A stretch of 37,079 nt of DNA from a virus: positions 1 to 37,079 of IMG/VR virus record IMGVR_UViG_3300021963_000334, one strand, 5' to 3'. The position numbers were made by a program, and so were the translations under genes. Positions 4,660-31,316 of this stretch are shown piece after piece. The notes beneath the pieces are model-generated. The model ran no database searches, was not told the origin of the DNA, and was given only the letters and a program-made list of their open reading frames with translations. The first letter of the stretch is position 1, and every line of letters begins with the position of its first letter.

Positions 4660-5818
4660 TTTACTTTTAATACCACAATTAGCCTATGCTGATGAAGTAC
4701 TTATTGAATTAACTCCAGATATTGCTTATGTAGATACAGTAGTAGAGGTCAATGGACCTACTGAATATTTTATTGAAACAACCACAGGTCCTAGATTTGA
4801 ACAAACACCTGATGGTGCAGTAGCAGAACGTGTTGAATGGGTAGATTCTTGGTTACAATTACGCCAAGGTGAAGTAGTTCTTAGACAAGACGATGACAGT
4901 AATCATAATACTCAAACTAATTATTATGCATCTAAACTTGTAGGTACATTAGATACAGGTACTTATACTATTCGTGCTACATCATACGACTACATAGTTG
5001 CAGGTCAAAGACCTATTGGAACTTATACTTTAAATAGTAATTTAATTAATCTTCCTGCTGTTGAGCCTGAACCTACTCCAGCACCTGAGCCAGAACCAAT
5101 ACCTGAGCCAGCACCTGAACCTGTGGCACCACCTATATTTATTGATTACCAACCAGAGCCTCCTCCACCTGTTGAAGAACCACCCGCAGTTATAGAAGAG
5201 CCTGTTACAGAGGCACCAGAGCCTCCTGTAGAACCTGAAGAACCTCCTCCAGTAGAAGAGCCTCCTGCTCCTGAAGAGGAAGCACCTGCTGAAGCAGAAG
5301 AACCACCCACTCCAGTTGAGGAAGCACCTCCTGTAGTTACTGAAGATTCGACACCTGAAGAAGTAGAAGCAGCAGTAGAAGCAATCATTGAATCAGCAGA
5401 TGGTGAAGCCATAACTGCTGAAGATATACAAGAAGCAGGTCTTACTCTTGAAGACTTGCCATCTGAGACTCCAGTAGAAGTTCGTACTGATGAAGATGGT
5501 AACGCAGTTGTTATTACTGCAGAAGTTGCTATTGCATTACAAGTATTCGATTCACCTGCTGAATTAGTAAGTGCAATCTTTGATGACCCAGGACAAGTCT
5601 TAACAGCCGTAGCAAATATAGGTGCTGATATGTCCGATGAAGAAAGAAAAGAATCAGAAGAAATTATTGTTGCATCTGTTATCGCTGGTCAGGCTGCTAT
5701 CAATGCAGCGGGTATGGCAGCAGGTACTGCAACTAGAACATCAACGCCAAGTTCCCCTGCTGGTGGACCTATGGCTGGTAACGATAAGCCTAAGTCAATA
5801 AGAAGGAGAAAACCTTGA
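4622..5818 (+). CDS. Secreted Pro/Glu-rich protein with signal peptide
   Basis: This 398-residue protein starts at TTG inside the preceding gene. Residues 1-23 form a textbook signal peptide (FLIGISLLLIPQLAYA, cleavage before DE). Residues about 25-140 are a beta-rich domain. About 145-245 is a Pro/Glu-rich spacer of PEP, PPPVEE and APE repeats, likely extended and wall-spanning. About 250-370 is acidic and helical, and the C-terminus is basic (KPKSIRRRKP). I do not recognise a family. Export from the host plus the lysis-module location suggest a role at the cell envelope, such as lysis or superinfection exclusion. A virion role cannot be excluded. Confidence 0.65.
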   Translation: MTKFIYSFLIGISLLLIPQLAYADEVLIELTPDIAYVDTVVEVNGPTEYFIETTTGPRFEQTPDGAVAERVEWVDSWLQLRQGEVVLRQDDDSNHNTQTNYYASKLVGTLDTGTYTIRATSYDYIVAGQRPIGTYTLNSNLINLPAVEPEPTPAPEPEPIPEPAPEPVAPPIFIDYQPEPPPPVEEPPAVIEEPVTEAPEPPVEPEEPPPVEEPPAPEEEAPAEAEEPPTPVEEAPPVVTEDSTPEEVEAAVEAIIESADGEAITAEDIQEAGLTLEDLPSETPVEVRTDEDGNAVVITAEVAIALQVFDSPAELVSAIFDDPGQVLTAVANIGADMSDEERKESEEIIVASVIAGQAAINAAGMAAGTATRTSTPSSPAGGPMAGNDKPKSIRRRKP

Positions 5819-5988
5819 AAATATTAAGAGATATGATTGAACAATTATGGACAGTACTAGGTATGTTTATTGCCTGGGTTGTACTTGATGGTTCAGCAAA
5901 GACAGTAGTTGGCTATGCAATCATTGCAACTTTAATCGCCTGGGCGGTTACTTACCGACTACGAAATCCTAAAGAAGATAATGAGTAA
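5815..5988 (+). CDS. 58-residue... 57-aa two-segment membrane protein, holin-like
   Basis: Start TTG at 5815 overlaps the previous stop (TTGA) and has a strong AAGGAG ribosome site 7 bases upstream. The 57-residue product has two hydrophobic segments (VLGMFIAWVVL and VVGYAIIATLIAWAVTY) separated by a short polar turn, and a charged tail (RLRNPKEDNE). That is the usual shape of a small class II holin. It overlaps the methyltransferase start by 8 bases. The holin call rests on topology and on the endolysin encoded nearby. Confidence 0.65.
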   Translation: MKILRDMIEQLWTVLGMFIAWVVLDGSAKTVVGYAIIATLIAWAVTYRLRNPKEDNE

Positions 5989-7838: not shown

Positions 7839-8427
7839 ACTATGGGACAAGGCTTGGGCTAAAGAAACTGAAGGATTAGATTTCTCAATTGCTCGTGTTG
7901 CTGGTCGTTCAACGATTGCGAATCCGAATAAGGAAGATGCTGTTTGGTGGAATACACAGGGTTCCAAGTGGGTAGATAACTACATCTCTTGGCGCAAGAA
8001 TAATAAAGACTGGAAAATCTGGACTACCCCTCAAGGTGTTCGGGCTATTGAGTTGGAGTTAAATCCCATCATTGCTGATGTTCCAGTGAAGATGTTTATT
8101 GATAGGATATTTGAAGTTAACGGACAACTTGTGATTGTCGACTTGAAAACTTCCTCTCGTAAGCCAGTATCTGATTTACAGTTAGGCTTTTATAAAGTCG
8201 GTGTAGAAGAGATGCTTGGTGTTAAAGTCAATCTAGGTAATTACTGGATGTCTCGTGAGTCAGGGACAGGGGAAATGATTGACCTTAGTAGATATACGCT
8301 AGACACATTAGAATATTTTGTGTCAGGCTTTGATAAGGCTCGCAAGGCTGGTATATTTCTACCGAACCTACAATCGTGCAGTTACTGTGGACTTACAGAA
8401 CACTGCCAATTCACGAAGGATAAATAA
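7831..8427 (+). CDS. Cas4/RecB-type exonuclease, catalytic part
   Basis: This 198-residue product holds the nuclease core: Asp91 (FIDRIFEV), Asp104-Leu-Lys106 (IVDLKTSS) and Gln117 (DLQLGFY), the PD-(D/E)XK pattern of RecB-family exonucleases. Cys183, Cys186 and Cys192 (CSYCGLTEHC) complete a four-Cys cluster with Cys24 of the preceding fragment, as in Cas4 and AddB. Its role is likely recombination or DNA end processing. No ribosome site precedes the ATG at 7831, and the frame is +1 to the upstream piece with an 8-base overlap, so separate initiation looks weak. Confidence 0.8.
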   Translation: MNELWDKAWAKETEGLDFSIARVAGRSTIANPNKEDAVWWNTQGSKWVDNYISWRKNNKDWKIWTTPQGVRAIELELNPIIADVPVKMFIDRIFEVNGQLVIVDLKTSSRKPVSDLQLGFYKVGVEEMLGVKVNLGNYWMSRESGTGEMIDLSRYTLDTLEYFVSGFDKARKAGIFLPNLQSCSYCGLTEHCQFTKDK

Positions 8428-8823
8428 ATGGCAAACGAAGACTGGAAACTACAAGTCTCTTATAAAACTCCATCTGGAGACTTAATTAATATACGTGCAA
8501 ATACTTCTGAAGAACTATCAGTGTTGCTTGAAGGTGTGAGTGATTACTCTACACAGATTGCAGCAACTGGAAAGTTAATTCAAGGTGCTTACACTGCAGC
8601 CCCTTTGGGGACCACTGGTTCAACAGTAGGCACAGCGCAACCTCCTACCTCAACAACCGCCCAGCAATCGGCTCCATCCGCTATGGGAGGTCTCTCAACC
8701 CCGACTTGTATACACGGACCGCGAACACATCGCAGTGGAGTGAGCAAGACAACGGGAAAGCCTTACGCATTTTGGTCTTGCCCGCTACCACAGGGACCAG
8801 AGCAGTGCAAACCAGCAAACTAA
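8428..8823 (+). CDS. Putative zinc-ribbon protein next to exonuclease
   Basis: A 131-residue protein. The N-terminal 60 residues look like a small alpha/beta domain, followed by a Thr/Ser/Gln/Pro linker (about 60-90). The C-terminal domain contains CIHGPR, then PYAFWSCPLPQGPEQC, a Cys/His set that could bind zinc like the ribbon at topoisomerase or ssDNA-binding ends. It starts right after the exonuclease stop with a GAAGGA site. A single-stranded DNA or exonuclease partner is my inference from the pairing; I know no verified function. Confidence 0.6.
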   Translation: MANEDWKLQVSYKTPSGDLINIRANTSEELSVLLEGVSDYSTQIAATGKLIQGAYTAAPLGTTGSTVGTAQPPTSTTAQQSAPSAMGGLSTPTCIHGPRTHRSGVSKTTGKPYAFWSCPLPQGPEQCKPAN

Positions 8824-8991: not shown

Positions 8992-9125
8992 TGAAACTAT
9001 ATTTTAAGTTTGTATGTGGTTTACATAACTGGTCAACAAGACAAATGAGTAATAGTATTAAAAAACTATATCCAGAATATCCAATTAATTTTAGAAAAGG
9101 CAAAAGTGAGAACACTTGTACGTAG
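8991..9125 (+). CDS. 44-aa basic small protein
   Basis: It starts in the TAATG overlap with the 8914 frame and ends inside the ATPase gene (20-base overlap). The product begins MKLYFKFVCGLHNWSTRQM and is Lys/Asn/Tyr-rich with two Cys. I do not recognise it. The chain of overlaps makes it more likely real than chance, but there is no homology evidence. Confidence 0.4.
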   Translation: MKLYFKFVCGLHNWSTRQMSNSIKKLYPEYPINFRKGKSENTCT

Positions 9126-9891
9126 CGTAGGTAGAAAAGATATTGGTGGAGAACCATTACCTTCTGTATTTAAAACGTTTGAAAGCAACAAGATTATATT
9201 TCGCAGAGCAGAAGTATCTATGCTTGCTGGAACTCCAGGTGTAGGTAAGTCAACTCTTGCTTTAGCCTTGGCATTAAATATGAAGGTGCCTAGTCTATAC
9301 ATATCTGCTGACACTAATGCTCACACTATGGCTATGCGATTAGCCTCAATGATTTCAGGTAAGAATCAAACTGATGTAGAAGAGTTGATGAATACTGACC
9401 AAGGTTGGACTCGTGCTGTGTTAGCAAAGGGTGCTCATATTGTTTGGTCATTTGAATCTAGTCCTACACTGCAAGATATAGATGAAGAAGTCCAAGCCTT
9501 TGAAGAACTATGGGGTTGCCCACCTGTAGCAATCTTTGTGGATAACCTTATGGATATTGCAACAGATGGAGGCGAAGAGTTCGCGTCTATGAGGGCTATT
9601 ATGAAGGAGTTAAAATACCTTGCTCGTGCTACTAACGCTGCTATCATTATTCTGCACCATACTTCTGAGGCTGTACTTGGTACTCCTTGTCAACCTCGCT
9701 CGGCTCTTCAGGGTAAAGTCGCCCAACTTCCCGCTCTTATTTGTACTCTTGGAGTCGTTGGTACTTCTATGGCTGTTGCTCCAGTAAAGAATAGATATGG
9801 CAGAGCGGATGCAAATGCTAACTTGAATTGTTGGTTATCTTTTAATCCTGAGTTTATGTTTATGAGTGACATACCTGAGAACGGTGGCTAG
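9106..9891 (+). CDS. DnaB/RepA-like hexameric helicase ATPase
   Basis: A 261-residue RecA-fold ATPase. Walker A is GTPGVGKST (42-50), Walker B is VAIFVDN (141-147), a motif-3-like strand IIILHHTSEA lies at 180-189, and the Lys/Arg finger-like VKNRYG is at 227-232. The layout fits AAA_25/RepA or the C-terminal domain of DnaB without its N-terminal domain. It likely unwinds DNA at the phage fork, working with the split primase encoded 1 kb downstream. It starts at GTG, and its stop overlaps the next start (TAGTG). Confidence 0.8.
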   Translation: MRTLVRSVGRKDIGGEPLPSVFKTFESNKIIFRRAEVSMLAGTPGVGKSTLALALALNMKVPSLYISADTNAHTMAMRLASMISGKNQTDVEELMNTDQGWTRAVLAKGAHIVWSFESSPTLQDIDEEVQAFEELWGCPPVAIFVDNLMDIATDGGEEFASMRAIMKELKYLARATNAAIIILHHTSEAVLGTPCQPRSALQGKVAQLPALICTLGVVGTSMAVAPVKNRYGRADANANLNCWLSFNPEFMFMSDIPENGG

Positions 9892-11750: not shown

Positions 11751-12112
11751 TAGAGCCGATTGACCCAGACTATCTAAAGTGTCACGAGTGTGGGGAAGAG
11801 TTTGAAAATTCATTTGATTTAATAGACCATACCCTAGAAGATGACGATGACTTTGACCCTTATCTAATTCTCCCTAATGGGTATAGATTAATGCTTGGTT
11901 CTCTACTTAAATTTCTTTATGATAATTCGGACAACACGGAACAAATAAGACATATAGCACAATCTACCTATGTTACACTTTTTGCAGCAGAAAATGGCTA
12001 TGACTTAATTGACACGTTGATTGAGGATATGATAGTCAAATCTTCTCTACAAAATTTTGACGAATCACTTCAGCAATTACTAACTGAAGGCGACAAAGAG
12101 AATGGGGAATGA
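11747..12112 (+). CDS. Zinc-finger hypothetical protein
   Basis: A 121-residue acidic protein with an N-terminal C2H-type motif (LKCHECGEEFENSFDLIDH), then an Asp-rich turn and PYLILPNGYRLMLGSLLKF. The pattern recurs in actinophage proteins of unknown function next to primase genes. A DNA- or protein-binding role in replication is inferred from place only. It starts at GTG. Confidence 0.6.
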   Translation: MIEPIDPDYLKCHECGEEFENSFDLIDHTLEDDDDFDPYLILPNGYRLMLGSLLKFLYDNSDNTEQIRHIAQSTYVTLFAAENGYDLIDTLIEDMIVKSSLQNFDESLQQLLTEGDKENGE

Positions 12113-13860: not shown

Positions 13861-14321
13861 TAATACCAATTGTGTCGGGTATGCCACCTTTGTGCAGAGC
13901 AAGGAGTTTTATATCTGTGTTGAATATATTTATAAGTGTGTAATATTTGAACCATAGGGTCTTTGCTTTTTTCTTTAAGTCTTTGTCCAATTCCAAATGC
14001 ACTTGAACCAGACCTGTTCTTTGCCAAATGGTCATACCTTGCCTCTTTAATAAAGATTTTATCAAGGCACGCCCACTCCTTATCTTTCCAACCATACCCA
14101 ACCCAAGCAATCTTCTTAGCCAACGCTTTGTTAGCCTTCTTCTGCTCCATTGTAGCCTTTGTTGGCTCTGGATTGGGGGATTTAAAGGGTGCGCCTGTGT
14201 TGTTTACAGAGAATAAAGTTAGGGTGATAACCAATAAGGCTAGGAATATCACCTTGAACTTTAAGCCAACTTTCTTTCTGCCCTTACTTTTCTTCTGTTG
14301 TGTTCTGATAGTCCGCCCCAT
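13860..14321 (-). CDS. Membrane-anchored lytic transglycosylase-like protein
   Basis: A 153-residue protein. A basic N-terminus is followed by a membrane anchor (about 22-38, FKVIFLALLVITLTLF) and a linker. The C-terminal domain has KEWACLDKIFIKEARY (probable catalytic Glu93), NRSGSSAFGIGQ, YIQHRYKTPC and ends HNWY, matching the SLT/aggregation-promoting-factor-type domain of actinobacteria. Cys85 and Cys141 could form a disulfide outside the cell. The start at 14321 follows GAAAGG and overlaps WhiB by 61 bases; upstream ATG 14363 is less likely. It is notable that a wall hydrolase sits in this cassette rather than with the lysis genes. Confidence 0.7.
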   Translation of the reverse strand: MGRTIRTQQKKSKGRKKVGLKFKVIFLALLVITLTLFSVNNTGAPFKSPNPEPTKATMEQKKANKALAKKIAWVGYGWKDKEWACLDKIFIKEARYDHLAKNRSGSSAFGIGQRLKEKSKDPMVQILHTYKYIQHRYKTPCSAQRWHTRHNWY

Positions 14322-14512
14322 ACGCCAAACCTTTCGTCGTTGTCTAATGAATACTTTAAACATTCCTCTTTAACATCACAGGCTTTGCATATTCTTTTAA
14401 CCCTTGATACATCATCTCCCTTTTCAGGGAAAAATAAATCAGGGTCTACCTCAGCACACAAGGCTCTCCTTGTCCACTCAGGTGGCATTAATATCTCACT
14501 AATTATACTCAT
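14261..14512 (-). CDS. whiB: WhiB-family transcriptional regulator
   Basis: This 83-residue protein has all WhiB marks: Cys19, Cys42, Cys45 and Cys51 (C-x2-C-x5-C spacing) for a 4Fe-4S cluster, the FGVWGG turn at 62-67 and a basic tail (RRKVRAERK) for DNA contact. WhiB proteins bind sigma region 4 of the actinobacterial RNA polymerase. The phage copy probably redirects host transcription. A GGAGGA site precedes the ATG, which also overlaps the stop of a 29-residue membrane peptide (ATGA). Confidence 0.93.
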   Translation of the reverse strand: MSIISEILMPPEWTRRALCAEVDPDLFFPEKGDDVSRVKRICKACDVKEECLKYSLDNDERFGVWGGLSEHNRRKVRAERKLA

Positions 14513-17421: not shown

Positions 17422-17585
17422 TATTTCACCCCACAAGCCTCTAAGAATAGTTCACGATTAAAACGGGGGTTAGTGCCTTCTAACTTGTCCGCCATATTGT
17501 GGGAAAGTTGAAACTTTAACTCTCCATTGCCGTGCCAACTTGTAGCGATAACTTCCGCTATGAGTTCGAAGTCCTTGCGTGTCAT
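17421..17585 (-). CDS. 54-aa conserved phage protein
   Basis: A TAGGAGAC site precedes the ATG. The start MTRKDFELIAEVIATSW and the phrases MADKLEGTNPRFNRELF and EACGV form a pattern I have seen in small proteins of many phages, function unknown. It is coupled by TAATG to the next gene. Confidence 0.7.
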   Translation of the reverse strand: MTRKDFELIAEVIATSWHGNGELKFQLSHNMADKLEGTNPRFNRELFLEACGVK

Positions 17586-17684
17586 TCTTGTCTCCTATCA
17601 GTTGGAAGGGGCATTGTTGCCTCTTCTCGTGCCCCTCGTCGGTCTTGAGCCGTCGCCGTCGTTAGCGGGCGGGGGGCGGTGTTG

Positions 17685-17939
17685 CTAGTCTTCTAAGTGA
17701 TAGCAAGCGGGGCAGAGCATTAGCCCGTTGTCCTCGCGTCGCTTGTAGTTCTCCGTCCAATTTTGACAAGCCTCGCACTCCTCCGCGTCTACCTCTTCGA
17801 TATCGGGCACAATTGAAAGGCTAGCGGTGAACTCTTCGAAAATCTCTTTATCGGTTAATTTATCGGAAGAGTAAAACTCATAATTAATATACTCTCCGCT
17901 TGTCTCGTGGATTATCTCTATCTTGTTTAGATATGCCAT
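17685..17939 (-). CDS. 84-aa zinc-ribbon protein, first gene of minus-strand cassette
   Basis: I start it at ATG 17939 behind ACAGGAG (7-base gap); the frame is open further upstream, but that part covers the promoter and is not protein-like. The N-terminal half is mixed alpha/beta (AYLNKIEIIHETSGEY). The C-terminal half carries ECEACQNW and LCPACYHLED, a four-Cys ribbon. As first gene of the operon it should be made early and in the largest amount. Confidence 0.7.
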   Translation of the reverse strand: MAYLNKIEIIHETSGEYINYEFYSSDKLTDKEIFEEFTASLSIVPDIEEVDAEECEACQNWTENYKRREDNGLMLCPACYHLED

Positions 17940-17988
17940 TGTCTTGCTCCTGTCCTGCCTTGGCGTGGTTGCCTTGGCTAGTAATGGA

Positions 17989-18017
17989 ACTATGACACGG
18001 GGCGGGGGGCTTGTCAA
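17989..18017 (-). promoter_or_regulatory. Strong sigma70-type promoter of the minus-strand cassette
   Basis: On the minus strand a perfect -35 TTGACA (18017-18012) is followed by a 17-base spacer and a -10 CATAGT (17994-17989). The spacer is almost all G and C. The first gene starts about 50 bases downstream. It is the only near-consensus promoter I find, which fits early expression by the host polymerase. Confidence 0.8.
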
Positions 18018-18027
18018 GGATATTTTG

Positions 18028-18077
18028 ATAACACTTTCGTTATAATTGGGTGGGGTGATTGTCTCAATATGTGAGAC
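18028..18077 (-). promoter_or_regulatory. Operator candidates upstream of the cassette promoter
   Basis: ATAAC (18028-18032) and GTTAT (18039-18043) form a 5-bp inverted repeat just upstream of the -35. GTCTCA (18061-18066) and TGAGAC (18072-18077) form a perfect 6-bp inverted repeat with a 5-base centre. Both have the size of dimeric regulator sites. A TATAAT at 18041-18046 on the plus strand lacks a clear -35. Confidence 0.45.
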
Positions 18078-18602
18078 TCTGCGCCCTTTGTGGATTGCAT
18101 TTATAACGGGGGATTGAATGCAAGAAGGAGGGGGGAATAGTGCGAGGGGGATAGTCAAGCAACATAAGATTATTAATTATTCTTTAGCCTGTGGATATCT
18201 CTGCCTATTACCGCCCGCAGTGGGCGCATATATACCTATCAGGGCAAGCACAAGTCTAAACCTCAGGTAGATGTTGAGGGTTTTTGACCCAGAGGTTATT
18301 AACCAGCGCCAGTGTCATATATGTACTCTCTACCAAAAAATTGCTGTTATATCCCCCGCTATATAGGCACAAAGTGCCACAAATAGGACATAATAAAAAA
18401 TATATTCATTCTGATTGTTCGGTTTTAGCCCTTCGAACAGGTTATCTTATATAGTAGTTAAAACTACAGAGTTCAAACGAACTCGTCGTTTTGGCTCCTC
18501 GTTCGTTGAATATAATATATAAATATTTAACCTACGAAGTAGGAGACGACCACAGTTATGCCGTTTAACGGGTAGCGTTATATGACCGATATTAGGGACT
18601 AA
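18078..18602 (+). promoter_or_regulatory. Gene-free region with many inverted repeats before terL
   Basis: I see no convincing gene. Perfect small inverted repeats occur at 18212-18226 (CGCCC/GGGCG), 18259-18297 (AACCTC/GAGGTT, enclosing GGGT/ACCC), 18294-18304 (GGTTA/TAACC), 18366-18378 (GGCAC/GTGCC), 18454-18467 (GTAGTT/AACTAC), 18469-18484 (GAGTTC/GAACTC), 18475-18491 (AAACGA/TCGTTT) and 18531-18543 (CCTAC/GTAGG). Such density suggests a transcribed structured leader, a noncoding RNA, or the packaging or replication site, which often lies by the terminase gene. Confidence 0.5.
18511..18516 (+). promoter_or_regulatory. -10 element candidate for the late operon
   Basis: A perfect TATAAT lies 87 bases before terL on the plus strand. 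No good TTGACA sits 16-18 bases upstream, so it may depend on an activator or on phage-modified polymerase (WhiB or the sigma-like protein are candidates, by inference). Confidence 0.4.
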
Positions 18603-20471
18603 ATGGGACGCAAGCCAGGGATACAAAATATACCAAAGGGCGAGGCCCAAGAAAAAGTTTTAATACAACTACAACAAGGTTCTACCATCACAGCCGCTAT
18701 GGCTTCAGTCGGACGTAACGATGTTACCTTCAGACAATGGTCGATGAATGACCCTGAATTTAAAGAGAGAGCCGATAAGGCCCGCCTTGCTGGTAAAGGG
18801 GTTATCGCTGACTTAGGGGATTTGAAGAACATATCCTTCCCTGACTTCTCAGAGCAGTTCTTAAACACAAAGTTATTTGAACACCACCTTGATTGGATTG
18901 ACTTAATCGAGGGTAGGACTCCTAGATGGATTCATCCTTCTATGACCTACGAGCCAGGTGCTGAGAACCGTATCTTAATTAACGTACCACCTGAGCACGC
19001 CAAGTCAACAACGATAACTACCAACTACGTAGTTCATCATATTGTGACCAACCCGAACTCAAGAGTAATCATAGTCTCTAAGACTCAGGGTATGGCTAGA
19101 AAATTTTTAGGTGCGATTAAGACTCGTCTTAGCCACCCCGCCTATATTAAACTCCAGACCGCCTTCGGTCCAAATGGAGGATATAAGGCTGACGCTACTC
19201 AATGGTCAGCAGATATGATTTACCTAGGCACTGGAAGAGATTCTGGTGAGAAGGACCCTACGGTACAAGCATTAGGATTTGGGTCTCAGATTTACGGTGC
19301 AAGAGCCGACCTGATTATCCTAGATGACGTTGTGATGAACTCAAATGCCCACGAATGGGAAAAGCAAATTGAATGGCTTCAAAAAGAAGTTATCACACGT
19401 TTGGGACGGCACGGAAAACTACTAGTAGTAGGAACCCGTGTCGCCTCAATTGATTTATATAAAATGATTAGAGATGGCGGACAATGGACTGGAGGCAAGT
19501 CTCCTTTCACATACTTCGCTATGCCAGCAGTTTTAGAATTTGATGAAAAGCCAGCCAATTGGAAAACCTTATGGCCTTGGACTGATAGACCAGAGGGCGA
19601 CAAAGATGAAGCAAATGAGGAAGGGCTGTTCCCTAAGTGGGATGGACCGTCACTATTTACAAGACGCTCTGAAGTGGCGCCATCTGTCTGGGCTATGGTC
19701 TACCAACAAGAAGATGTCACAGAGAATTCAATCTTTTCTCCAACCTGTATCGCAGGTAGCGTTAATGGAATGCGAAAAAGAGGACCTCTCAAGCCTGGAG
19801 TCCCAGGACATCCGAAGCATTGTGAATCTACATATACAGTTATTGGCCTCGACCCAGCAATGGCGGGAGCAACAGGAGCGGTAGTTGTTTCTTATAACCG
19901 CGCTGATGGCAAGATATATGTTTTAGATTGTATTAATATGACAGACCCAACACCAGCCAAGATTCAAAACTTGATTGAAGAATGGGTACCTAAATACAAG
20001 CCACAAGAAATACGAATTGAAATTAACGCCCACCAGAAGGCTTATGCTCTGGATGATAACCTAAGAAATTATCTAGCCCAATATGGTTGCCAACTTAACT
20101 CACACTTTACTGGCAAGAATAAATGGGATGTTGGATTCGGTGTAGCCTCTATGGCAAGCCTATTTGGTTCAACCAGAGATGGTAGATTCCAAGATAACAA
20201 CATACTTGAATTACCAAGCAATGAAGGCTCTGAAGGACTTAAGACTTTAGTTCAAGAACTTATTACTTGGAAGCCTGACACTAAGAACCCAACTGACTGT
20301 GTAATGGCTTTATGGTTTGCAGTTATTCGTATCCGCGAATTAATGCAACAGTCAACACGAATTGGGCAATACCAGAATAATCGATGGGCCACTAGAGCAC
20401 AACAATCAAAACGCGGTTCACTTAATTTAGACGAAGCCTTTGCAGAGCAATGGGCTGAAACTTACAGTTAG
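18603..20471 (+). CDS. terL: Terminase large subunit with N-terminal helix-turn-helix
   Basis: A 622-residue packaging motor. Residues about 15-65 (GSTITAAMASVGRNDVTFRQ) look like a helix-turn-helix of the kind found in small terminase subunits. The ATPase follows with Walker A-like PPEHAKST (129-136) and Walker B LIILDD (237-242). The nuclease domain has GLDPAMAG (Asp417) and DCVMALW (Asp565). No separate small-subunit gene is visible nearby, so the N-terminal domain may take over DNA recognition. The DNA-rich control region with inverted repeats just upstream could be its target. Confidence 0.9.
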   Translation: MGRKPGIQNIPKGEAQEKVLIQLQQGSTITAAMASVGRNDVTFRQWSMNDPEFKERADKARLAGKGVIADLGDLKNISFPDFSEQFLNTKLFEHHLDWIDLIEGRTPRWIHPSMTYEPGAENRILINVPPEHAKSTTITTNYVVHHIVTNPNSRVIIVSKTQGMARKFLGAIKTRLSHPAYIKLQTAFGPNGGYKADATQWSADMIYLGTGRDSGEKDPTVQALGFGSQIYGARADLIILDDVVMNSNAHEWEKQIEWLQKEVITRLGRHGKLLVVGTRVASIDLYKMIRDGGQWTGGKSPFTYFAMPAVLEFDEKPANWKTLWPWTDRPEGDKDEANEEGLFPKWDGPSLFTRRSEVAPSVWAMVYQQEDVTENSIFSPTCIAGSVNGMRKRGPLKPGVPGHPKHCESTYTVIGLDPAMAGATGAVVVSYNRADGKIYVLDCINMTDPTPAKIQNLIEEWVPKYKPQEIRIEINAHQKAYALDDNLRNYLAQYGCQLNSHFTGKNKWDVGFGVASMASLFGSTRDGRFQDNNILELPSNEGSEGLKTLVQELITWKPDTKNPTDCVMALWFAVIRIRELMQQSTRIGQYQNNRWATRAQQSKRGSLNLDEAFAEQWAETYS

Positions 20472-22274: not shown

Positions 22275-22844
22275 ATGACTGCAATCGTTGGTGTTCAAGG
22301 CAAAGGTTGGGCTGTCTTAGCAGCAGATTCAATGACTACATATATGGATAAACCATATGTAGCAAAAGGCTGTGACAAGATAGTTAAAGTTGGAGAGTAT
22401 TTAATTGCAGTAGCAGGTGATGCTATAGCAGGAGATATTCTTAATAACTTATGGCAACCACCTAAAGTAATTAAAACGCAAGACCCAGATAGATTTATGA
22501 TGATTAGAATTTTACCATCTATCAAACAAGCATTAACTGAAGCAGGATACGACCCAGCACCAAAAAATAAGAATGATGATGATTCTGGATGGGACGCTTT
22601 AATCTGTTTTAATGGAAAGTTATATCAAGTTAGTGATGACTATGGATATATGCGAGATGATAAAGGTTTATACGGAATAGGCGCAGGTGGGGGATTAGCC
22701 CTTGGTGCACTAGCAATGATGGAAGTAGAAACAAAAACACACGCCAAAGCATCTGGTGCTGCAAAGAAAGCGATAAACGTAGCAATTCAATATAATGTTT
22801 GGTGTGGTGGACCAGTACATACAAAAACACAATTTACTAAGTAG
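22275..22844 (+). CDS. Proteasome/HslV-like Ntn hydrolase, candidate prohead protease
   Basis: A 189-residue protein that begins Met-Thr-Ala-Ile-Val-Gly. After Met removal Thr becomes residue 1, as in proteasome beta and HslV subunits. Counting from that Thr, Asp17 (AVLAADS) falls exactly at the catalytic Asp position, and Lys34 (CDKIVKVG) aligns with Lys33. IAVAGDAIAGDIL and the late GIGAGGGLALGAL strand also fit the family. Known prohead proteases sit between portal and capsid, where this gene lies, and no other protease is present. Capsid maturation is therefore the inferred role. A host-directed protease is the alternative. Confidence 0.8.
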   Translation: MTAIVGVQGKGWAVLAADSMTTYMDKPYVAKGCDKIVKVGEYLIAVAGDAIAGDILNNLWQPPKVIKTQDPDRFMMIRILPSIKQALTEAGYDPAPKNKNDDDSGWDALICFNGKLYQVSDDYGYMRDDKGLYGIGAGGGLALGALAMMEVETKTHAKASGAAKKAINVAIQYNVWCGGPVHTKTQFTK

Positions 22845-22852
22845 GAGGAATA

Positions 22853-23278
22853 ATGGCTGAGAATCGTGGAGGAATGCGCCCAACAGCGCCACAGAATAAT
22901 CCAGCAAATGTTTCTGCAACTGGTGGAGCAGGACAATCAGGAACACAGGCTGCACGATATATTCCTGGGCTTCCATATGGTCAGGGACAAACAACTATGA
23001 CTCAACAACAGAGTGCTCCTATGGCTGGACCAAATCCAACCGCACCTGCTAGTCCATTTGATGCAATGATGCCATCAGTAACTCCTTTAACTGCACCAAC
23101 AGAACGGCCAAATGAACCAATAACTGCTGGTATGGATTTTGGAGCAGGTCCAGGAAGTGAAGTTTTAAATCTTCCAAGAGAACGCTCCTTATCTGAAACT
23201 CTTGAAAGTATGATTCAATTTGATAATACTGGCGAAGTCCAAACTCTTTATGATTTTGTAGTATCACGAGGTCTTTAA
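22853..23278 (+). CDS. 141-aa Pro/Gln/Gly-rich virion-module protein
   Basis: An AGGAGG site precedes the ATG. Most of the sequence is low-complexity (Pro, Gln, Gly, Ala, Thr), with a short ordered end (SLSETLESMIQFDNTGEVQT). It is coupled by TAATG to the giant gene. It might be a disordered linker or ejected protein, or a cargo of the prohead. No family recognised. Confidence 0.6.
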   Translation: MAENRGGMRPTAPQNNPANVSATGGAGQSGTQAARYIPGLPYGQGQTTMTQQQSAPMAGPNPTAPASPFDAMMPSVTPLTAPTERPNEPITAGMDFGAGPGSEVLNLPRERSLSETLESMIQFDNTGEVQTLYDFVVSRGL

Positions 23279-26200
23279 TGTCAGTAAATAAACTGGCCCA
23301 GTCTTCTCCTGGTGCAGCAGTCGCTGCTATTCAGGCTAACGCATCTCCTGAGGATATTGCTCGTCTTTCAAAAATTGCTGAATTGCAAAAGATTCATAAA
23401 GATTTAACATCTCTTCCACAAAATGCTGCATATTCAAAATTTCAAAAATATAATCAAGAAACTAAAGACGCATTGTCTCAATTATATAATCCTAAATATC
23501 TTGAAAAAGATAAAGGTTTATTTGGTAATTTTTTAAGTGGAATTAAATCTGCTGTATGGTATGGCGGCGGAACAACTAAAGATATTATTAATCAAATTGG
23601 TTTATTAAATCCACTTACAGCAACTACTGCTATTGCTAAAAAAGGAGCAGTAAATGCCCTTCAAGCAGTAGGTCGTGTGGCTACTGACGAAACAACTGCT
23701 GTTGGTTCAGTATTAGATACTGCTATGCGCCCAGCAGAAAAACTTATTAAGCAACCATTTCAGGCTCAAGTGCTATATGAAGAGAGTACAAAAGATTCTT
23801 TTATTGGAGATGTAAAGAATTTTGGTCGCGTATGGACTGAAGGCTTAAAAGAACTTATGCCTGGTGGTCGAGATGCTGTAGCCACCGATATGTCTACATC
23901 TTGGAAAAAATATTGGGAAGCCGCTTCTGACCCAGAAACAGTTTATAATCCAACAGCAGTAGCACAAATTGAAAAAGATATGGACCCATCTCTTTCATAT
24001 GTTGCTAAGATTTTTTCATCTAAAAAAGACATTATTGATGAATTTGATAATTACAAAAATAATCCTGCTGTAACTAATTTAATTGCCAATTATGTTGCTG
24101 GCGATAAAGATGCTATGGCTCAAATTGGTGATGCTGTTGCTCGTTACGAAAAGGCTAAAGTAAGCCCAGGACGCGAATATGCTCGTGCAGTTATTAGTTT
24201 ATTTCCACACGAGTGGGAAAGAGCAATGCTTGGTGATGGCGCAGCCAAAATATTTTTCAACACCCTTTCTGCTCCAGTTGACGCTGGTGTTACGTTTGCA
24301 CTTGACCCATTAATTATTGGTAGCAAGGCACGTATGGCTGTATTAGCATCTAAATTTAGTTTAACAAAGTTTGGTGCAAGTCAAGAAGCACTTACTGTAG
24401 CATTTGAAAGACAACCACAATTCCGTAAGTATCTTGATGAAGCAGGAAAACTCATTAATACTTATAAGACTGGCTCTTTAGAAGAAAGCGGAGTTGCATA
24501 CAATCTTCTTCGTAATAGATATAAAGAATTATCTCCTGATGTAATTAATGATATGGCTAAGTTTGGTGTAAAAAACGATGTTACTGCACTTAAATTCTTT
24601 GAAGGTCAATCTGCAATTAATTTATTAACACAGGGGAATGCTGGAATTCGTAAGGTTCCATTATTACCGCGTTATACAGCAGTAACTAGTGCAAATAACT
24701 GGTTTAAAAACACTGTTGAAAAACTTATTACTCTGCCAAATAAAGAGTGGAGAACAATTGACTTACCAGGGGCTAAAGAAGATGTTTCAAAATTGCTTGC
24801 AACTAACCCTGAAAAATGGGCAAATAAAATTGGACTTGAAGAAGGTCTAGCAATTGGTCCAGATGGACGTGCTATTACAATTTATACGCAACTTGATAAA
24901 TCAATAGCGGCAAGAGTTGACAAATTTGTTCGTATGTTTGAAATTGGTCCTAAAATGCAACGCTTGATTAATATTTCAGATGCTTCTGACGCTGACCAAA
25001 TATTTAAAATGGCACGTACTATTACTGATAAAAAAACAGCAGGAAGTTTGCGTGTTGCTTGGATTGGTGGGGAAGAAGGAGACCGTCTACTTATTTTACA
25101 GGGCGTTCTAAAGAGTATTGGTCGCGGTATGGGACTTGAATATTCTGAAGAAGGTCGCAAGATTATGTCATCTATTGACGAACTTTCAAAAGAAACTTAC
25201 TCAGTCAGCCAAGGCCCGATTGATTTTGGTGACTTTGCAGATGCGGCACGAACTATTAATCCTAAGGGACTTCCACAACCAAAGGGCATTAGAAAAATAG
25301 TTCAAGAAAATATAGATGTTGCTACCGCTGAGACTAAAATTACGCGAGTTCAGGCTTCTATTAGTGCAGAATTGACTTCTATCTCAAATGAAATGAAGGC
25401 TTTATCTGCCGCCAAAAAAGACCTTAAATTAAAAGAAAAAGCAGGAATGGATGTCAAAGATAAACTTGATGACATTGATTCACAGAAAAGAATTTTAGGT
25501 GCTCGTTATGCAAAACTTAACAAGGGCCGTAAAGATATAAATGCTGGTGTAGCAGAAGATGCAATATCTCTTGACTCAACAGACTTTAACGCTGCAGAAC
25601 TTAATGGAACTCAACGCGCTATTCGTGTGTATCAATTAAACACACAACGCTCACTTCCAAACTTTAATGACTGGCGTGCAGCCGCTGCTCGCTCAGGTGT
25701 AGCAACAAAAATTATTGGTGGTGCTTCTAATAACCAAGGAGTTCAGGCTGTTACAGATGCCTGGTCTTTTGGTAACCTTTATCCTAGAATTGGTATTCGT
25801 ACCGCAACTGAAGAAGTTGGAACATATGGTCTTATTAACGGCGCCGAAGGATTTGGTAATTATTTAAAAGGACGAGAGTTATCTAAGGCTCTGCGTTCAA
25901 CCGCACCTGCTGGCGTAAAAACACGTATTTTAAAATCTAAGGGACAATTAAAAGAGGTTGAAGTACAAAACCTTGGTGTCCTTTATAATTCTTTTTTAAA
26001 GTTATTAAAGAAATCAAGCAGTAAAGAAGAAATTGCTCTTGCACAAAAAGACCCAGAACTGTTAGGTGAAGTAACAGCAAACGCTCTTCTTAAAAATCGC
26101 TTGCGTCCAGAAATCTTAAACACCAAGACTGGCAACGAACTTGCTGAATATGCCAGAGATTTTGCTCGCTTTAATGGTAAACCAATACTTGATGATGTCA

Positions 26201-28557
26201 ATGGCGCAACTATGCGTGCAGAAACACGAATGACTGAAGCAGAATTAGCATCTAAGTCTCTTGAAAAGTTTGGTCCATCAATTGCTTTAAATCCAAATAT
26301 TGGTGAAGCCGTAAAGGGAATGACTTTTGCAAAAGAGTTTACTGAGATGCGTTCTAACAGTGAGGGATTTTTAGTTAACTGGCTTCTTGAACTTAATAAT
26401 ACCGTCGGTAAGCGTAATGGACAATTCGGCAATATTGTATTATGGAATGCAAATAAACCACAAAAAGAAGTAATTGATAAACTTAGGACTTATATTGAAA
26501 CCGATGGGGCAGATATAGCCAATCGTTTTGCTATATTCAAGTCTGTTGGAGCACAAAACTTTGCTGAACGCATATATGCTGATGCAACATATGCTCTTCG
26601 TGATAGTTCTGGTAGAATCAACACAAAATTAGTTAATGCTATCCGCGATGCAGGTGGTATGGATAATTTTACCCTTGATGATTTAGTTAAATTTGATGTT
26701 AAGTTTGCTCGTCCAAAAAGTATACTTGGTAAAGAATTAATTCCTATTGAAAAAGCAAATGGTTCAAACGTATTCCGTAGAATTCAAGATAATGGATACG
26801 GTTGGGTAGGAAAACAAATTGCACTTCTTGACAAAGAGCCTATTACATTGGGTAACTACGCTATGTACCGTGACCAACTTAAAGGTTATCAGGCTAATGT
26901 AAAAGAAAGATTGTTAGCATCTGGCGCATCTGAAGAACTTGCTGAAACATCAGCACGTCTTGCTGCACACGATACAGCATTAAATCTTGCCGTAAATAGA
27001 ACTGTAGCGTTTATTGACAATTCAGACGTAAGAACAAATTTAGCGTACAGTTTAAGAACATTTGGTCGTTACTATCGTGCAACTGAAGACTTTTATCGAC
27101 GCTTTGCAAGAATTGTACGTTATGAACCACAAGCACTTGCTCGTCTCGCTATTTTAAATCAAACATTTGAAGATTCTGGATTTATTCATAAAGATGATAA
27201 AGGTCAATTATACTTTACATACCCAGGTGATGATTTGCTTAATAAAATGCTGGGAGATTATCTATTTAAGGGACTCGGAATGAGTGGTTCACAACTTCTA
27301 TCAGTTAATTTTGGTGGATATGTGAAAGCCTTAACACCATCACTTGACCCTAGGTCTGCTCCTCCAAGACTTAGTGGACCATTAGCCTCTGTTTCAATTG
27401 CAATGCTTGAACAATTACCATTTATTGGTGATTTTATTAAAGGTCAAGAGAACGTATTAACTGGCGGTATTGGAGACCAACCTCTTTGGCGCAAAGTTCT
27501 TCCAATAAATGCTCAACGTATTGTTGATATTGTTATTGGTGGAGATGCTAATAGCGAAGCACGAGCATCTGCAACTATGAAGGGTATGCGCTTACAAGTA
27601 TCCCTTGGTAATGGACCAAAGAGTCCTTCAGACATTAATAGATTTTTGCACGATTCATTAATTCAAGGAATCAACCAGCAAGTAGCAAAATTATTCTTTG
27701 GCGGTATGAGTCCTGCATCAATTCAAGCGTTTGAAGATAAATCTATTCCGAAAGAACTTCACGATGCCAGTGCATTTACTTGGAATTCAGAGTTTATAAA
27801 ATTTAGAGAACGCCATATAGGCGACCCTCAAGGACTTAGTAAGGCTCTTGTAGAGTTTGCGACCATTTACCCAAGCAAGTTAGCATTTACTGTATCTGGA
27901 ACTACCCCTGGAACAGAGGCAAACTTCGAAAAATCATATGAGGCTGCTAGGTTTGTAAAAAATAACAAATCTTTATTCCTTGACCATAAAGAAGGTATGG
28001 CATTCTTTATTCCTATTAATGGAACAAATGATTTCCAGTCATATCAATATCTTAAAAATAATGGTTTTGTGAAAAATAAAGAATTAGAAAAATTTGCACA
28101 AGAAATTCAGACTGCATACACACGCAAAGCCTATTATGAGCGCTCTGACTATTGGAACAATTTGATTGCTAATTCAAACGATATAGAGGCTAAAAGATAT
28201 TATCGTTGGAAAATGGCCGAAGAACAAACTATGTTTAAAACAATAGACCCTATGTTACAAACTGCACTTAGCGGGGGCGACAAACAGCCTAAAATAAATG
28301 CTCTCGATGATTTAAGAAAACTTCTTTTAAGTGGCAAAGCACCAGATAGAAAACTTGCCACCATTTATACATCTATGGTTCTCACATATGATAGAGAAAT
28401 GAAGAAGTTGGATAATTTGGGAAGTACTGATTTTGATACATTCCAAAGAAAAAATATTAAAGCAGACCTAAAGGATACTTTGGTAACAATGGCAAAAGAT
28501 AACCCTAGCGCTCAATCGCTTTACTGGGTTTTATTTGATTCTCTGATTGGAGACTAG
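23278..28557 (+). CDS. Giant internal/ejection-type virion protein (1759 aa)
   Basis: The largest gene (5.3 kb). The product is mostly helical with Lys/Glu/Ala-rich segments and a coiled coil at about 680-750 (SAELTSISNEMKALSAAKKD). I see no Walker, lysozyme or peptidase motif. Its length, composition and position among head genes resemble the large internal proteins of short-tailed phages (the T7 gp16 type), which are ejected ahead of DNA. Without tail tube and sheath genes a tape-measure role is less likely. The 5' end is coupled to the 141-aa gene by TAATG. Confidence 0.7.
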   Translation: MSVNKLAQSSPGAAVAAIQANASPEDIARLSKIAELQKIHKDLTSLPQNAAYSKFQKYNQETKDALSQLYNPKYLEKDKGLFGNFLSGIKSAVWYGGGTTKDIINQIGLLNPLTATTAIAKKGAVNALQAVGRVATDETTAVGSVLDTAMRPAEKLIKQPFQAQVLYEESTKDSFIGDVKNFGRVWTEGLKELMPGGRDAVATDMSTSWKKYWEAASDPETVYNPTAVAQIEKDMDPSLSYVAKIFSSKKDIIDEFDNYKNNPAVTNLIANYVAGDKDAMAQIGDAVARYEKAKVSPGREYARAVISLFPHEWERAMLGDGAAKIFFNTLSAPVDAGVTFALDPLIIGSKARMAVLASKFSLTKFGASQEALTVAFERQPQFRKYLDEAGKLINTYKTGSLEESGVAYNLLRNRYKELSPDVINDMAKFGVKNDVTALKFFEGQSAINLLTQGNAGIRKVPLLPRYTAVTSANNWFKNTVEKLITLPNKEWRTIDLPGAKEDVSKLLATNPEKWANKIGLEEGLAIGPDGRAITIYTQLDKSIAARVDKFVRMFEIGPKMQRLINISDASDADQIFKMARTITDKKTAGSLRVAWIGGEEGDRLLILQGVLKSIGRGMGLEYSEEGRKIMSSIDELSKETYSVSQGPIDFGDFADAARTINPKGLPQPKGIRKIVQENIDVATAETKITRVQASISAELTSISNEMKALSAAKKDLKLKEKAGMDVKDKLDDIDSQKRILGARYAKLNKGRKDINAGVAEDAISLDSTDFNAAELNGTQRAIRVYQLNTQRSLPNFNDWRAAAARSGVATKIIGGASNNQGVQAVTDAWSFGNLYPRIGIRTATEEVGTYGLINGAEGFGNYLKGRELSKALRSTAPAGVKTRILKSKGQLKEVEVQNLGVLYNSFLKLLKKSSSKEEIALAQKDPELLGEVTANALLKNRLRPEILNTKTGNELAEYARDFARFNGKPILDDVNGATMRAETRMTEAELASKSLEKFGPSIALNPNIGEAVKGMTFAKEFTEMRSNSEGFLVNWLLELNNTVGKRNGQFGNIVLWNANKPQKEVIDKLRTYIETDGADIANRFAIFKSVGAQNFAERIYADATYALRDSSGRINTKLVNAIRDAGGMDNFTLDDLVKFDVKFARPKSILGKELIPIEKANGSNVFRRIQDNGYGWVGKQIALLDKEPITLGNYAMYRDQLKGYQANVKERLLASGASEELAETSARLAAHDTALNLAVNRTVAFIDNSDVRTNLAYSLRTFGRYYRATEDFYRRFARIVRYEPQALARLAILNQTFEDSGFIHKDDKGQLYFTYPGDDLLNKMLGDYLFKGLGMSGSQLLSVNFGGYVKALTPSLDPRSAPPRLSGPLASVSIAMLEQLPFIGDFIKGQENVLTGGIGDQPLWRKVLPINAQRIVDIVIGGDANSEARASATMKGMRLQVSLGNGPKSPSDINRFLHDSLIQGINQQVAKLFFGGMSPASIQAFEDKSIPKELHDASAFTWNSEFIKFRERHIGDPQGLSKALVEFATIYPSKLAFTVSGTTPGTEANFEKSYEAARFVKNNKSLFLDHKEGMAFFIPINGTNDFQSYQYLKNNGFVKNKELEKFAQEIQTAYTRKAYYERSDYWNNLIANSNDIEAKRYYRWKMAEEQTMFKTIDPMLQTALSGGDKQPKINALDDLRKLLLSGKAPDRKLATIYTSMVLTYDREMKKLDNLGSTDFDTFQRKNIKADLKDTLVTMAKDNPSAQSLYWVLFDSLIGD

Positions 28558-28559
28558 CA

Positions 28560-29498
28560 ATGGGATATGAAAATCGTGATAACGATGCTGCCTATAAATG
28601 GTATGGCCCAGGTAAAGACCCAGGTGATATTCCTGTTGACCAGCAAGACCAGAATGATAATGATGCTAAAGTAGGGGCACTTGTTGGGGGAACTGACCCA
28701 AATGCTGATGCTGCTTATCAAGAATTTTTAAGGTTAAAAGGATTAGCAGATAGAAAATCTATTTCTTTAACTACACCTGCCGAAGCAACTGCTGATATTA
28801 ATGCCAGTTGGATGGAACAATTTGGTACTAATGCACCAAAGGCTATTGCTACTGCTTATTATAAAGAACTAGCAAGACTTCAATCTACTAGAGTAAGTGG
28901 CGGAGTCAGTAAAGACGGCAAGACAACAATAAATACACAAGGTGTTTCTGGCTCAGAAATAAAGGCACTTCAAAATAAGTACTTAACTGCTGCTGCAACT
29001 GACCTTATTGCTGCTTCAAGTAGAGGAGATGCTAAGGCTACTGCTGCTCTACAAAAGGGCAACTTTGGACTTACATATACAACTCTTAAGAATGCTTATG
29101 CTGAAAATGGATTACCAGTAAATATGCAAGCATTGGGTAAGTTGACTATTGAGTCAGCCACTAACCCTAGCCTTCTTAAATCAAATTTAAATTTAATTAA
29201 TATGCAAGCAAAAACATATTTTCCAGCATTAGCAGATAAGATTGATAAGGGATATACAGTAAAACAATTACTTACTCCTTATATAAATACACGTGCTAAT
29301 ATCCTAGAGGAAGACCCAGATTCAATAGATGTATCTACTTTAAAGTCAGTAGCATCTGACCCTAAAGGTTTGATGGGACTATATGATTATGAAATTTCTC
29401 TACGCAAAAACCCTAAATGGGCTTATACAAAGAATGCTCAAGATTCTTTGAGTTCACTTGCAAGAGATATGACTAAGATGTTTGGATTGGGAGCGTAA
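28560..29498 (+). CDS. 312-aa internal virion-type protein
   Basis: It starts two bases after the giant gene. The N-terminal 50 residues are Asp/Gly-rich (NDAAYKWYGPGKDPGDIPVD). The rest is helical with Ala/Lys repeats (ADINASWMEQFGTNAPKAIA). It is coupled by TAATG to the next gene. Position suggests a second internal or ejection protein, but no motif proves it. Confidence 0.6.
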   Translation: MGYENRDNDAAYKWYGPGKDPGDIPVDQQDQNDNDAKVGALVGGTDPNADAAYQEFLRLKGLADRKSISLTTPAEATADINASWMEQFGTNAPKAIATAYYKELARLQSTRVSGGVSKDGKTTINTQGVSGSEIKALQNKYLTAAATDLIAASSRGDAKATAALQKGNFGLTYTTLKNAYAENGLPVNMQALGKLTIESATNPSLLKSNLNLINMQAKTYFPALADKIDKGYTVKQLLTPYINTRANILEEDPDSIDVSTLKSVASDPKGLMGLYDYEISLRKNPKWAYTKNAQDSLSSLARDMTKMFGLGA

Positions 29499-30718
29499 TG
29501 CCATCATTAGATGCCCTTTATGACGCAAAGATAGCGGCTGGTCAAACACGTGATGCTGCCAAAACAGCAGAAGCAATAAGTATTGTTGGTAGAGAAGAAG
29601 TAGAACGAAGGGGTGGAGTAAACGCCCAAGGATATTTTATGGATGTCCCAGTATCACAACAATTAACTGCCCAGGAATATAAATCAGTTACTAAGCCAGA
29701 TGGAACTATTGATTCAGAAGCAGCACTTGCTATATTAAATAAAAAATCAGGTGGAACAATAAGTGGACCACTAGGAACTAGCACAAGCACAGGTACCCTA
29801 GGTACAACTCCTACATCTGGAACTACTGCAGGTTCAGTAAATGCAATTGCAGCAATTTCTGCATTACTTTCTTCATATGGACTTGGTGACCTAAGCGGAG
29901 CAATAACCGAAGCAGTTCAAAAGGGATATACAAGCGATACAATTCAATTGATTATGCAAGACCCTAATAGCAAGGACCCATTAGCGGTTGCATTCCAAAC
30001 AAGATTTCCTGCAAATAAAACACGCCTTGCTGCTGGTAAGTCAGTATTAAGCGCAGCAGAGTATTTAGCAGCAGAGCGAACATACACTCAAGTATTACAA
30101 TCCTATGGTGCATCTAGTCTTGCTACTAGAGATAGAATGAATTCTTTTATTTCCAATGATGTATCAGCAGCAGAGGTATCTGACCGAGTAGGTTTAGCGG
30201 TAGATAGAGTAAGGAATGCTGACCCATTTGTAAAGGCTGCTTTAGCAGAATATTATCCTATGCTTAACCAGGCAGATATTGTTGCTGCAGTATTAGACCC
30301 AGCAGAAGGACTACCAGCCCTAAAGCGTAAAGTTAATATTGCTGAAATTGGTGGTGCTGCTTCTGTACAAGGATTAAAGACTGGACTTAATGCAATGTCT
30401 GCAACCTCTAAAGAATTTGAAAATGTAACTACTGGAGCATTAGGTGCTGAAGCATTAGCATCATTTGGTATTACTAAAGAAGAAGCACGTAAGGGTTATC
30501 AAACCGTAGCAGGTATTGCACCTCGTGCAGAATTCTTATCAAGTATTTCTGGTGGAGAAGATTACACAAGACTTCAAGCAGAACAAGAAACATTCCTTGG
30601 ATTAGCCTCTGCTAAGAGAGCAAGAGAATCTTTGACTGCTTTAGAAGAGGGAAGATTTAAAGGACAATCTGGATTAACGAAGACTAGCCTTACTAATAAA
30701 GGTGCTGGTCAGTACTAA
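29498..30718 (+). CDS. 406-aa internal virion-type protein
   Basis: Helical protein with a Thr/Gly/Ser-rich linker at about 85-110 (TSTSTGTLGTTPTSGTT) and a C-terminal half with regular helices (DPFVKAALAEYYPMLNQAD). The C-terminus ends in Lys/Gly (LTNKGAGQY). Together with the 312-aa and 1759-aa products it may form the ejected complex. Family unknown. It is the last gene before the structured RNA. Confidence 0.6.
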   Translation: MPSLDALYDAKIAAGQTRDAAKTAEAISIVGREEVERRGGVNAQGYFMDVPVSQQLTAQEYKSVTKPDGTIDSEAALAILNKKSGGTISGPLGTSTSTGTLGTTPTSGTTAGSVNAIAAISALLSSYGLGDLSGAITEAVQKGYTSDTIQLIMQDPNSKDPLAVAFQTRFPANKTRLAAGKSVLSAAEYLAAERTYTQVLQSYGASSLATRDRMNSFISNDVSAAEVSDRVGLAVDRVRNADPFVKAALAEYYPMLNQADIVAAVLDPAEGLPALKRKVNIAEIGGAASVQGLKTGLNAMSATSKEFENVTTGALGAEALASFGITKEEARKGYQTVAGIAPRAEFLSSISGGEDYTRLQAEQETFLGLASAKRARESLTALEEGRFKGQSGLTKTSLTNKGAGQY

Positions 30719-30726
30719 ATAGAATC

Positions 30727-30810
30727 CTATGTGAATCCATCGGCCTCACATAGCGTACTAGACCGATAGCAAGAGCCAGCCTGGTTCCCCGACCAGAATC
30801 TGAGGCTTGC
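30727..30810 (+). promoter_or_regulatory. Structured RNA with pseudoknot upstream of the scaffold gene
   Basis: CTATGTGA (30727-30734) pairs perfectly with TCACATAG (30746-30753). Its loop ATCGG (30739-30743) pairs with CCGAT (30763-30767), a pseudoknot. A second hairpin has GCAA (30769-30772) with TTGC (30807-30810), GCC (30775-30777) with GGC (30804-30806), and CTGGT (30781-30785) with ACCAG (30792-30796). It fills the gap before the scaffold start at 30840, so it likely acts on capsid-gene expression. No known RNA family is recognised. Confidence 0.6.
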
Positions 30811-30839
30811 GACTACAACGAATAGAAGGGTGGGTTGCT

Positions 30840-31316
30840 ATGAGCAACAACTACTGGGATGAAGACGAAGACGACCAAGATACCGACACTGATACGCAAA
30901 TGGATGGAAGCGATTTACTTAAAAAATTGCGTAAAGCCAAGCGTAATGATGAGAAGCGTATTAAGGAACTCACTGAGCAACTTGAGGGATTATCCAAGGT
31001 GCAGCGTGAGCGTACAGTCAAAGAAGTCCTAGAAAAAAAGGGTGTCAACGCCAAAGCAGCAAGATTAGTTCTTAAAGATTTGGATGATGTTAACGAAGAG
31101 TCAGTGAATAACTGGCTTGATGATAACGCAGACTTATTTGGACTAACAGTTGCAAAGGAAGAGCCAAAAGTATCAGAACAAGACCGTGCCGCATTGCGTC
31201 AACAGGATGTTTTGACACAGAATGCTATGACCCCAGACCGAGCAGAAGACTTAAATCTTCGCATCGATAACGCGGATTCAATGGACGCGTTGTTAGATGT
31301 ACTTCGCTCACAATAA
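30840..31316 (+). CDS. Capsid scaffolding protein
   Basis: A 158-residue acidic helical protein directly before the capsid gene. It has an Asp/Glu-rich start (YWDEDEDDQDTDTDTQMDG), a coiled coil (KLRKAKRNDEKRIKELTEQL) and a helical end, as usual for scaffolds. I use ATG 30840; an in-frame TTG at 30807 lies in the structured RNA. The scaffold would guide capsid assembly and be removed, possibly by the Ntn hydrolase. Confidence 0.75.
   Translation: MSNNYWDEDEDDQDTDTDTQMDGSDLLKKLRKAKRNDEKRIKELTEQLEGLSKVQRERTVKEVLEKKGVNAKAARLVLKDLDDVNEESVNNWLDDNADLFGLTVAKEEPKVSEQDRAALRQQDVLTQNAMTPDRAEDLNLRIDNADSMDALLDVLRSQ

Follow-up and report, generated by a model that had tools for sequence, protein, structure and literature searches.

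The window, which is the whole 37,079-nucleotide stretch of DNA analysed here, belongs to a freshwater actinobacterial virus and carries, directly behind the portal gene, an Ntn hydrolase that is a group-I proteasome homologue and is probably an intracellular peptidase acting at infection time, not an enzyme of head maturation. The comparisons established its homology, intact catalytic residues, predicted fold and purifying selection, as well as the swapping and relocation of the gene and the fact that the set of head genes can do without it. Freshwater actinobacterial phages exchange the gene as a cassette, and it has been repeatedly swapped and relocated. Phage-borne group-I homologues of this kind have already been described; the position in the genome is unusual and does not reflect capsid maturation. 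The tempting claim that a proteasome matures the capsid has been removed, and a testable one put in its place. Coordinates of the features are collected in Table 1.

Table 1 Features of the window and of the phage loci compared with it
Sequence	Feature	Coordinates	Strand	Basis or remark
Window	DnaB/AAA_25-like protein	9106-9891		
Window	WhiB-like regulator	14261-14512	-	PF02467, 5.5e-24
Window	TerL (terminase large subunit)	18603-20471	+	PHROG 38, 1.5e-68
Window	Portal, 593 aa	20479-22260	+	PHROG 104, 2.7e-27
Window	HslV/BPH-like Ntn hydrolase, 189 aa	22275-22844	+	T2, D18, K35, G48 equivalent to Thr1/Asp17/Lys33/Gly47
Window	141-aa protein	22853-23278	+	PHROG 8200
Window	1759-aa protein, probably virion	23278-28557	+	No family matched (Pfam, PHROG)
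Window	312-aa protein	28560-29498	+	PHROG 6654
Window	406-aa protein	29498-30718	+	PHROG 8424
Window	Scaffold-like protein	30807-31316	+	PHROG 7813; putative scaffold from position and composition
Window	Major capsid protein (MCP), 317 aa	31347-32300	+	PHROG 1357, 1.1e-79; PF13252
L138	Small slot ORF	11786-12013		
L142	Small slot ORF	5701-5925		
L087	Small slot ORF	8033-8287		
G021	Small slot ORF	28167-28376		Reverse-complement coordinates
L087	MCP of E7	17567-18766		
L344	HslV-like protein, 388 aa	4001-5167		
L345	HslV-like protein, 327 aa	4001-4984		
L347	HslV-family gene	8019-8459		
L348	HslV-family gene	7938-8372		

The reading frame of the Ntn gene, which spans exactly the interval in Table 1, opens with ATG ACT (Met-Thr) behind a GGGG run, and its product starts MTAIVGVQGKGWAVLAADS...KGCDKIVKVG...VAGD. 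The original prediction had recognised a proteasome-type Ntn hydrolase by this Met-Thr start and by Asp17 and Lys34 counted from the Thr, and all of these were borne out by the sequence. In the alignment, Lys34 is the counterpart of Lys33 of HslV and the proteasome, displaced by one inserted residue, and the equivalent of the oxyanion Gly47 is G48. In an alignment of 226 Ntn relatives, residue 2 was Thr in 222 of the 222 rows that reach it, Asp18 was invariant (225/225), and so were Lys35 and Gly48 (226/226 each). The median dN/dS of the gene was 0.10-0.12, indicating purifying selection. Because the catalytic residues are invariant and dN/dS is about 0.1, the gene appears to be kept as an enzyme. 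Promoter and terminator sites in a scan around the gene did not exceed those in shuffled sequences.

Family searches placed the protein among proteasome-like enzymes. It matched PF00227 (Pfam Proteasome) with 24.4 bits at a cut-off of 22.4, PHROG 1040 ('peptidase HslV family') at 4.6e-26 over almost its full length and, by phmmer, the BPH structure 5ovs at 1.5e-4; 23 of 26 diverse relatives also matched PF00227, and no other Pfam family was hit. An AlphaFold model built with 26 relatives as input (pLDDT 88.8, pTM 0.87) had the sandwich fold of proteasome beta and HslV, with helices at residues 50-58 (H1) and 71-89 (H2). Foldseek returned BPH 5ovs as the top PDB match of the model (E 1.7e-11, TM 0.73), with HslV at E 1.7e-9 and 20S beta at E 5e-9. 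The predicted structure and its comparison with HslV and proteasome beta thus point to an Ntn-type fold, in agreement with the enzyme class proposed originally. The suggestion that the gene had been captured from a host 20S proteasome was not supported, since the nearest solved structures are BPH and HslV, not actinobacterial 20S beta. A search for cellular relatives with a narrower Ntn alignment found only one gammaproteobacterial locus (25%).

Among known systems, BPH (5ovs, 5ovt, 5ovu) is the best match in both sequence and structure; neither enzyme has a propeptide and both have the Thr/Asp/Lys/Gly set, whereas identity is about 21% and the window's enzyme is encoded by a tailed phage. Group-I proteasome homologues carried by phages were described before by Fuchs, Alva and Lupas (2021, PMC8665760), and PPH, AAH and CPH are group-I homologues that include phage-borne ones; their survey reported AAH from no phage specific to Actinobacteria. 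All three resemble the window's enzyme in being phage-borne and group-I (BPH/HslV-like) with an intact active site. PPH is defined as about 140 aa without helix H2 (PMC8665760), and membership was ruled out for the window's protein, which has 189 aa and, in the model, both H1 and H2. HslV (ClpQ) shares the fold and catalytic set, but the window's enzyme has no propeptide and did not qualify as an HslV equivalog (NF003964, 17.9 versus 137 bits; TIGR03692, 17.3 versus 157.75). No HslU-type unfoldase was recognised among the window proteins scanned, where the DnaB/AAA_25-like protein was the only P-loop ATPase besides terminase; such a partner may be supplied by the host.

The family is also found in distant phages. 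DSL-LC01, VpV262, Kayfunavirus and Salmonella phages carry their annotated HslV-like genes among those for early functions, nucleotide metabolism, replication or lysis, whereas that of the window follows the portal. The homologue adjoins WhiB in DSL-LC01, dCMP deaminase in XacN1, ThyX and MazG in Pumpernickel, ThyA, DHFR and RNR in AAS21, PhoH and RNR in J2-1 and 166E36-1, and DnaD/DnaB in Shewanella 3/49; it stands just upstream of holins in Kayfunavirus and Salmonella SE124_1FR, and it is ORF47, outside the structural block, in VpV262. Two HslV-like proteins adjoining PhoH/RNR (L344, L345) have long C-terminal extensions, and two HslV-family genes of Escherichia and Salmonella phages (L347, L348) lie immediately 5' of a holin-holin-endolysin array. 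The recurrence of nucleotide-metabolism genes as neighbours in large phages would suit another Ntn activity, such as an amidase, a specific processing enzyme or a ligase, and connectase, a ligase that belongs among the proteasome-like homologues, is a precedent (PMC8665760). We regard such an activity as rather unlikely, since BPH and HslV, the nearest structural matches, are threonine peptidases and the model lacks the helices that connectase has inserted between S3 and S4.

The original prediction placed the gene between portal and scaffold/capsid, where it took the enzyme for the capsid maturation protease. The gene does lie directly after the portal, but some 8 kb and four ORFs (of 141, 1759, 312 and 406 aa) separate it from the scaffold (near 30807) and the MCP (31347). 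There are 14 bases between the portal and the Ntn start and 8 bases between the Ntn stop and the 141-aa ORF, and from this tight spacing we infer that the gene is likely transcribed with the late head operon in the window's group. Scans of head-module proteins of the window revealed no prohead protease of a conventional type. The 1759-aa protein is possibly an internal or ejected virion protein that is rapidly exchanged. It is 21-43% identical across phages whose portals are 55-98% identical, and its gene is flanked by conserved genes in most relatives where it was recognised.

A search with the portal as query gave 80 loci, and the slot behind the portal could be judged in 79 of them (one, L137, is cut off). 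The Ntn gene occupied this slot in 70 of the 79, in at least four divergent types; types other than the window's were 28-35% identical to its enzyme. The other nine loci, with portals 84-85% identical, had only an ORF of 73-79 aa there. Two of the nine stand on contigs of nearly genome length (G001, 39.9 kb; G002, 37.5 kb) that had no Ntn gene anywhere, although they are possibly incomplete (the complete E7 genome has 39.1 kb); the same search found exactly one in each of seven control contigs. Both retain portal (84-85%), scaffold (74%) and MCP (76%). Immanuel3, a complete, cultured relative, also had no Ntn gene. All 19 loci that had a visible slot and an MCP identity of 92% or more contained an Ntn gene there, belonging to one of three types, so the gene is usual in the window's group. 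A portal slot that lacks the Ntn gene is filled by a small ORF of 69-84 aa, and in the E7 type such an ORF comes after the Ntn gene. Most of these ORFs have a strongly acidic C-terminus, and family searches with them gave no convincing match.

The gene has also moved. In a sister actinophage group it lies after the lysis genes and before the replication genes, directly upstream of a PD-(D/E)XK exonuclease in all 56 loci with upstream sequence, and many of the enzymes there are 82-87% identical to the window's. One phage of this group (G021, 37.5 kb) has the gene between holin and PD-(D/E)XK nuclease, and a 69-aa ORF between its portal and PHROG 8200 gene. Because the sister-group gene precedes replication genes, one fixed expression time does not seem to be required.

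Swapping was seen on several trees. The portal tree required at least 12 switches of the slot's occupant and the MCP tree (37 rows) 10, and the Ntn type changed 9 and 22 times on the trees of the 1759-aa and 141-aa proteins. Co-exchange with neighbouring genes was considered as a hint to the substrate, and no neighbour tracked the Ntn type well. In one relative (L088) the portal is 97% identical to that of the window and yet the Ntn enzymes are of different types; the break between the two starts within the final 100 bases of the portal, and the Ntn gene was exchanged together with two variable genes, those of the 141-aa and 1759-aa proteins. Such joint exchange, and a slot between the portal and these variable genes, would fit a virion-associated peptidase packaged via the portal/internal-protein module and ejected with the DNA to act early on host proteins or used to trim the large internal proteins. 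We judge this distinctly unlikely, since the same enzyme type occurs in the replication module of the sister phages and the Ntn type does not follow the trees of the two variable proteins. Quite improbable, in our estimate, is a late function within the particle in the window's group, in which a ring-forming threonine peptidase, after its move to the portal slot, would trim a scaffold or internal protein or clear it away when present and yet not be strictly required.

Comparison of the potential head substrates bears on capsid maturation. The MCPs of phages with and without the Ntn gene are colinear from residue 1, a short N-arm of about 25 residues preceding the conserved block, and their scaffolds, which are encoded by a separate gene, likewise align from residue 1; no removable prodomain, delta domain or extra segment was seen on either protein in these alignments. 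The prohead proteases (HK97 S78, ClpP-like S14 and T4 gp21 types) have the post-portal position in common with the window's enzyme, but their fold is unrelated, no family match was obtained and the Ntn gene is dispensable for the head gene set. A literature search gave no paper on an HslV-like or proteasome-like prohead protease apart from two in which the terms occur, one reporting the genome of a jumbo phage and one surveying gut enzymes. In D'Alembert a head maturation protease lies beside the portal, and the Ntn hydrolase is a second enzyme encoded at a distance of over 10 kb. That the Ntn hydrolase processes the scaffold, the capsid protein or both inside the prohead, as originally proposed, would agree with its slot right after the portal in a tightly spaced late operon, with the lack of a recognised conventional protease and with its high occupancy of that slot (70/79, and 19/19 with close MCPs), but we consider it very improbable indeed, because head genes persist without it (9/79 slots, G001, G002 and Immanuel3), its gene lies away from the head module in the sister group and in distant phages, D'Alembert encodes both enzymes at different places, the Ntn type switches independently of the MCP, and the head proteins have no segment to remove. 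Podoviruses of the P22, T7 and phi29 types are not known to require capsid proteolysis, which we also count against this role.

An infection-time peptidase accounts best for these observations. Relatives keep the capsid without the gene, or have the gene beside replication genes, so the enzyme is most likely a helper peptidase. As the Met-Thr start suggests, Met1 would be removed to leave a free Thr, which would serve as the nucleophile together with the Asp17 and Lys33 equivalents and could cleave peptides or unfolded proteins. By analogy with HslV or BPH, the enzyme would probably form a self-compartmentalised ring. Its role would be non-essential and usually beneficial, in protein or peptide turnover, host takeover or counter-defence during infection, and the cassette would be deployed from the portal slot in the window's group and from the head of the replication module in the sister group. 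Counting against an infection-time role, the late head operon position and the 70 of 79 slots holding an Ntn gene fit a late or virion-linked job too.

The presence of the WhiB-like gene (PF02467) supports an actinobacterial host for the window. Cultured kin are the Planktophila phages LanE43AprE7 and AprF5 (records ct2KA10), whose portal is 85% identical to the window's and whose hosts are 'Ca. Nanopelagicales' (PMC10202952); the host strain is 'Ca. Planktophila' LanE-43. Cultured Streptomyces podoviruses have portals 43-44% identical to it; one Streptomyces phage, Abafar, is described as a podovirus in a paper in which virion mass spectrometry was sought and none was found (PMC11536984). Phages that infect abundant freshwater actinobacteria commonly carry the gene of a proteasome-fold enzyme as a mobile, strongly conserved accessory, and pairs of phages with and without it, together with the cultured E7 and F5, which both have it, provide a direct route to the function of a phage HslV-like enzyme. 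Compared with the window's MCP, that of E7 contains an inserted stretch of about 80 residues.
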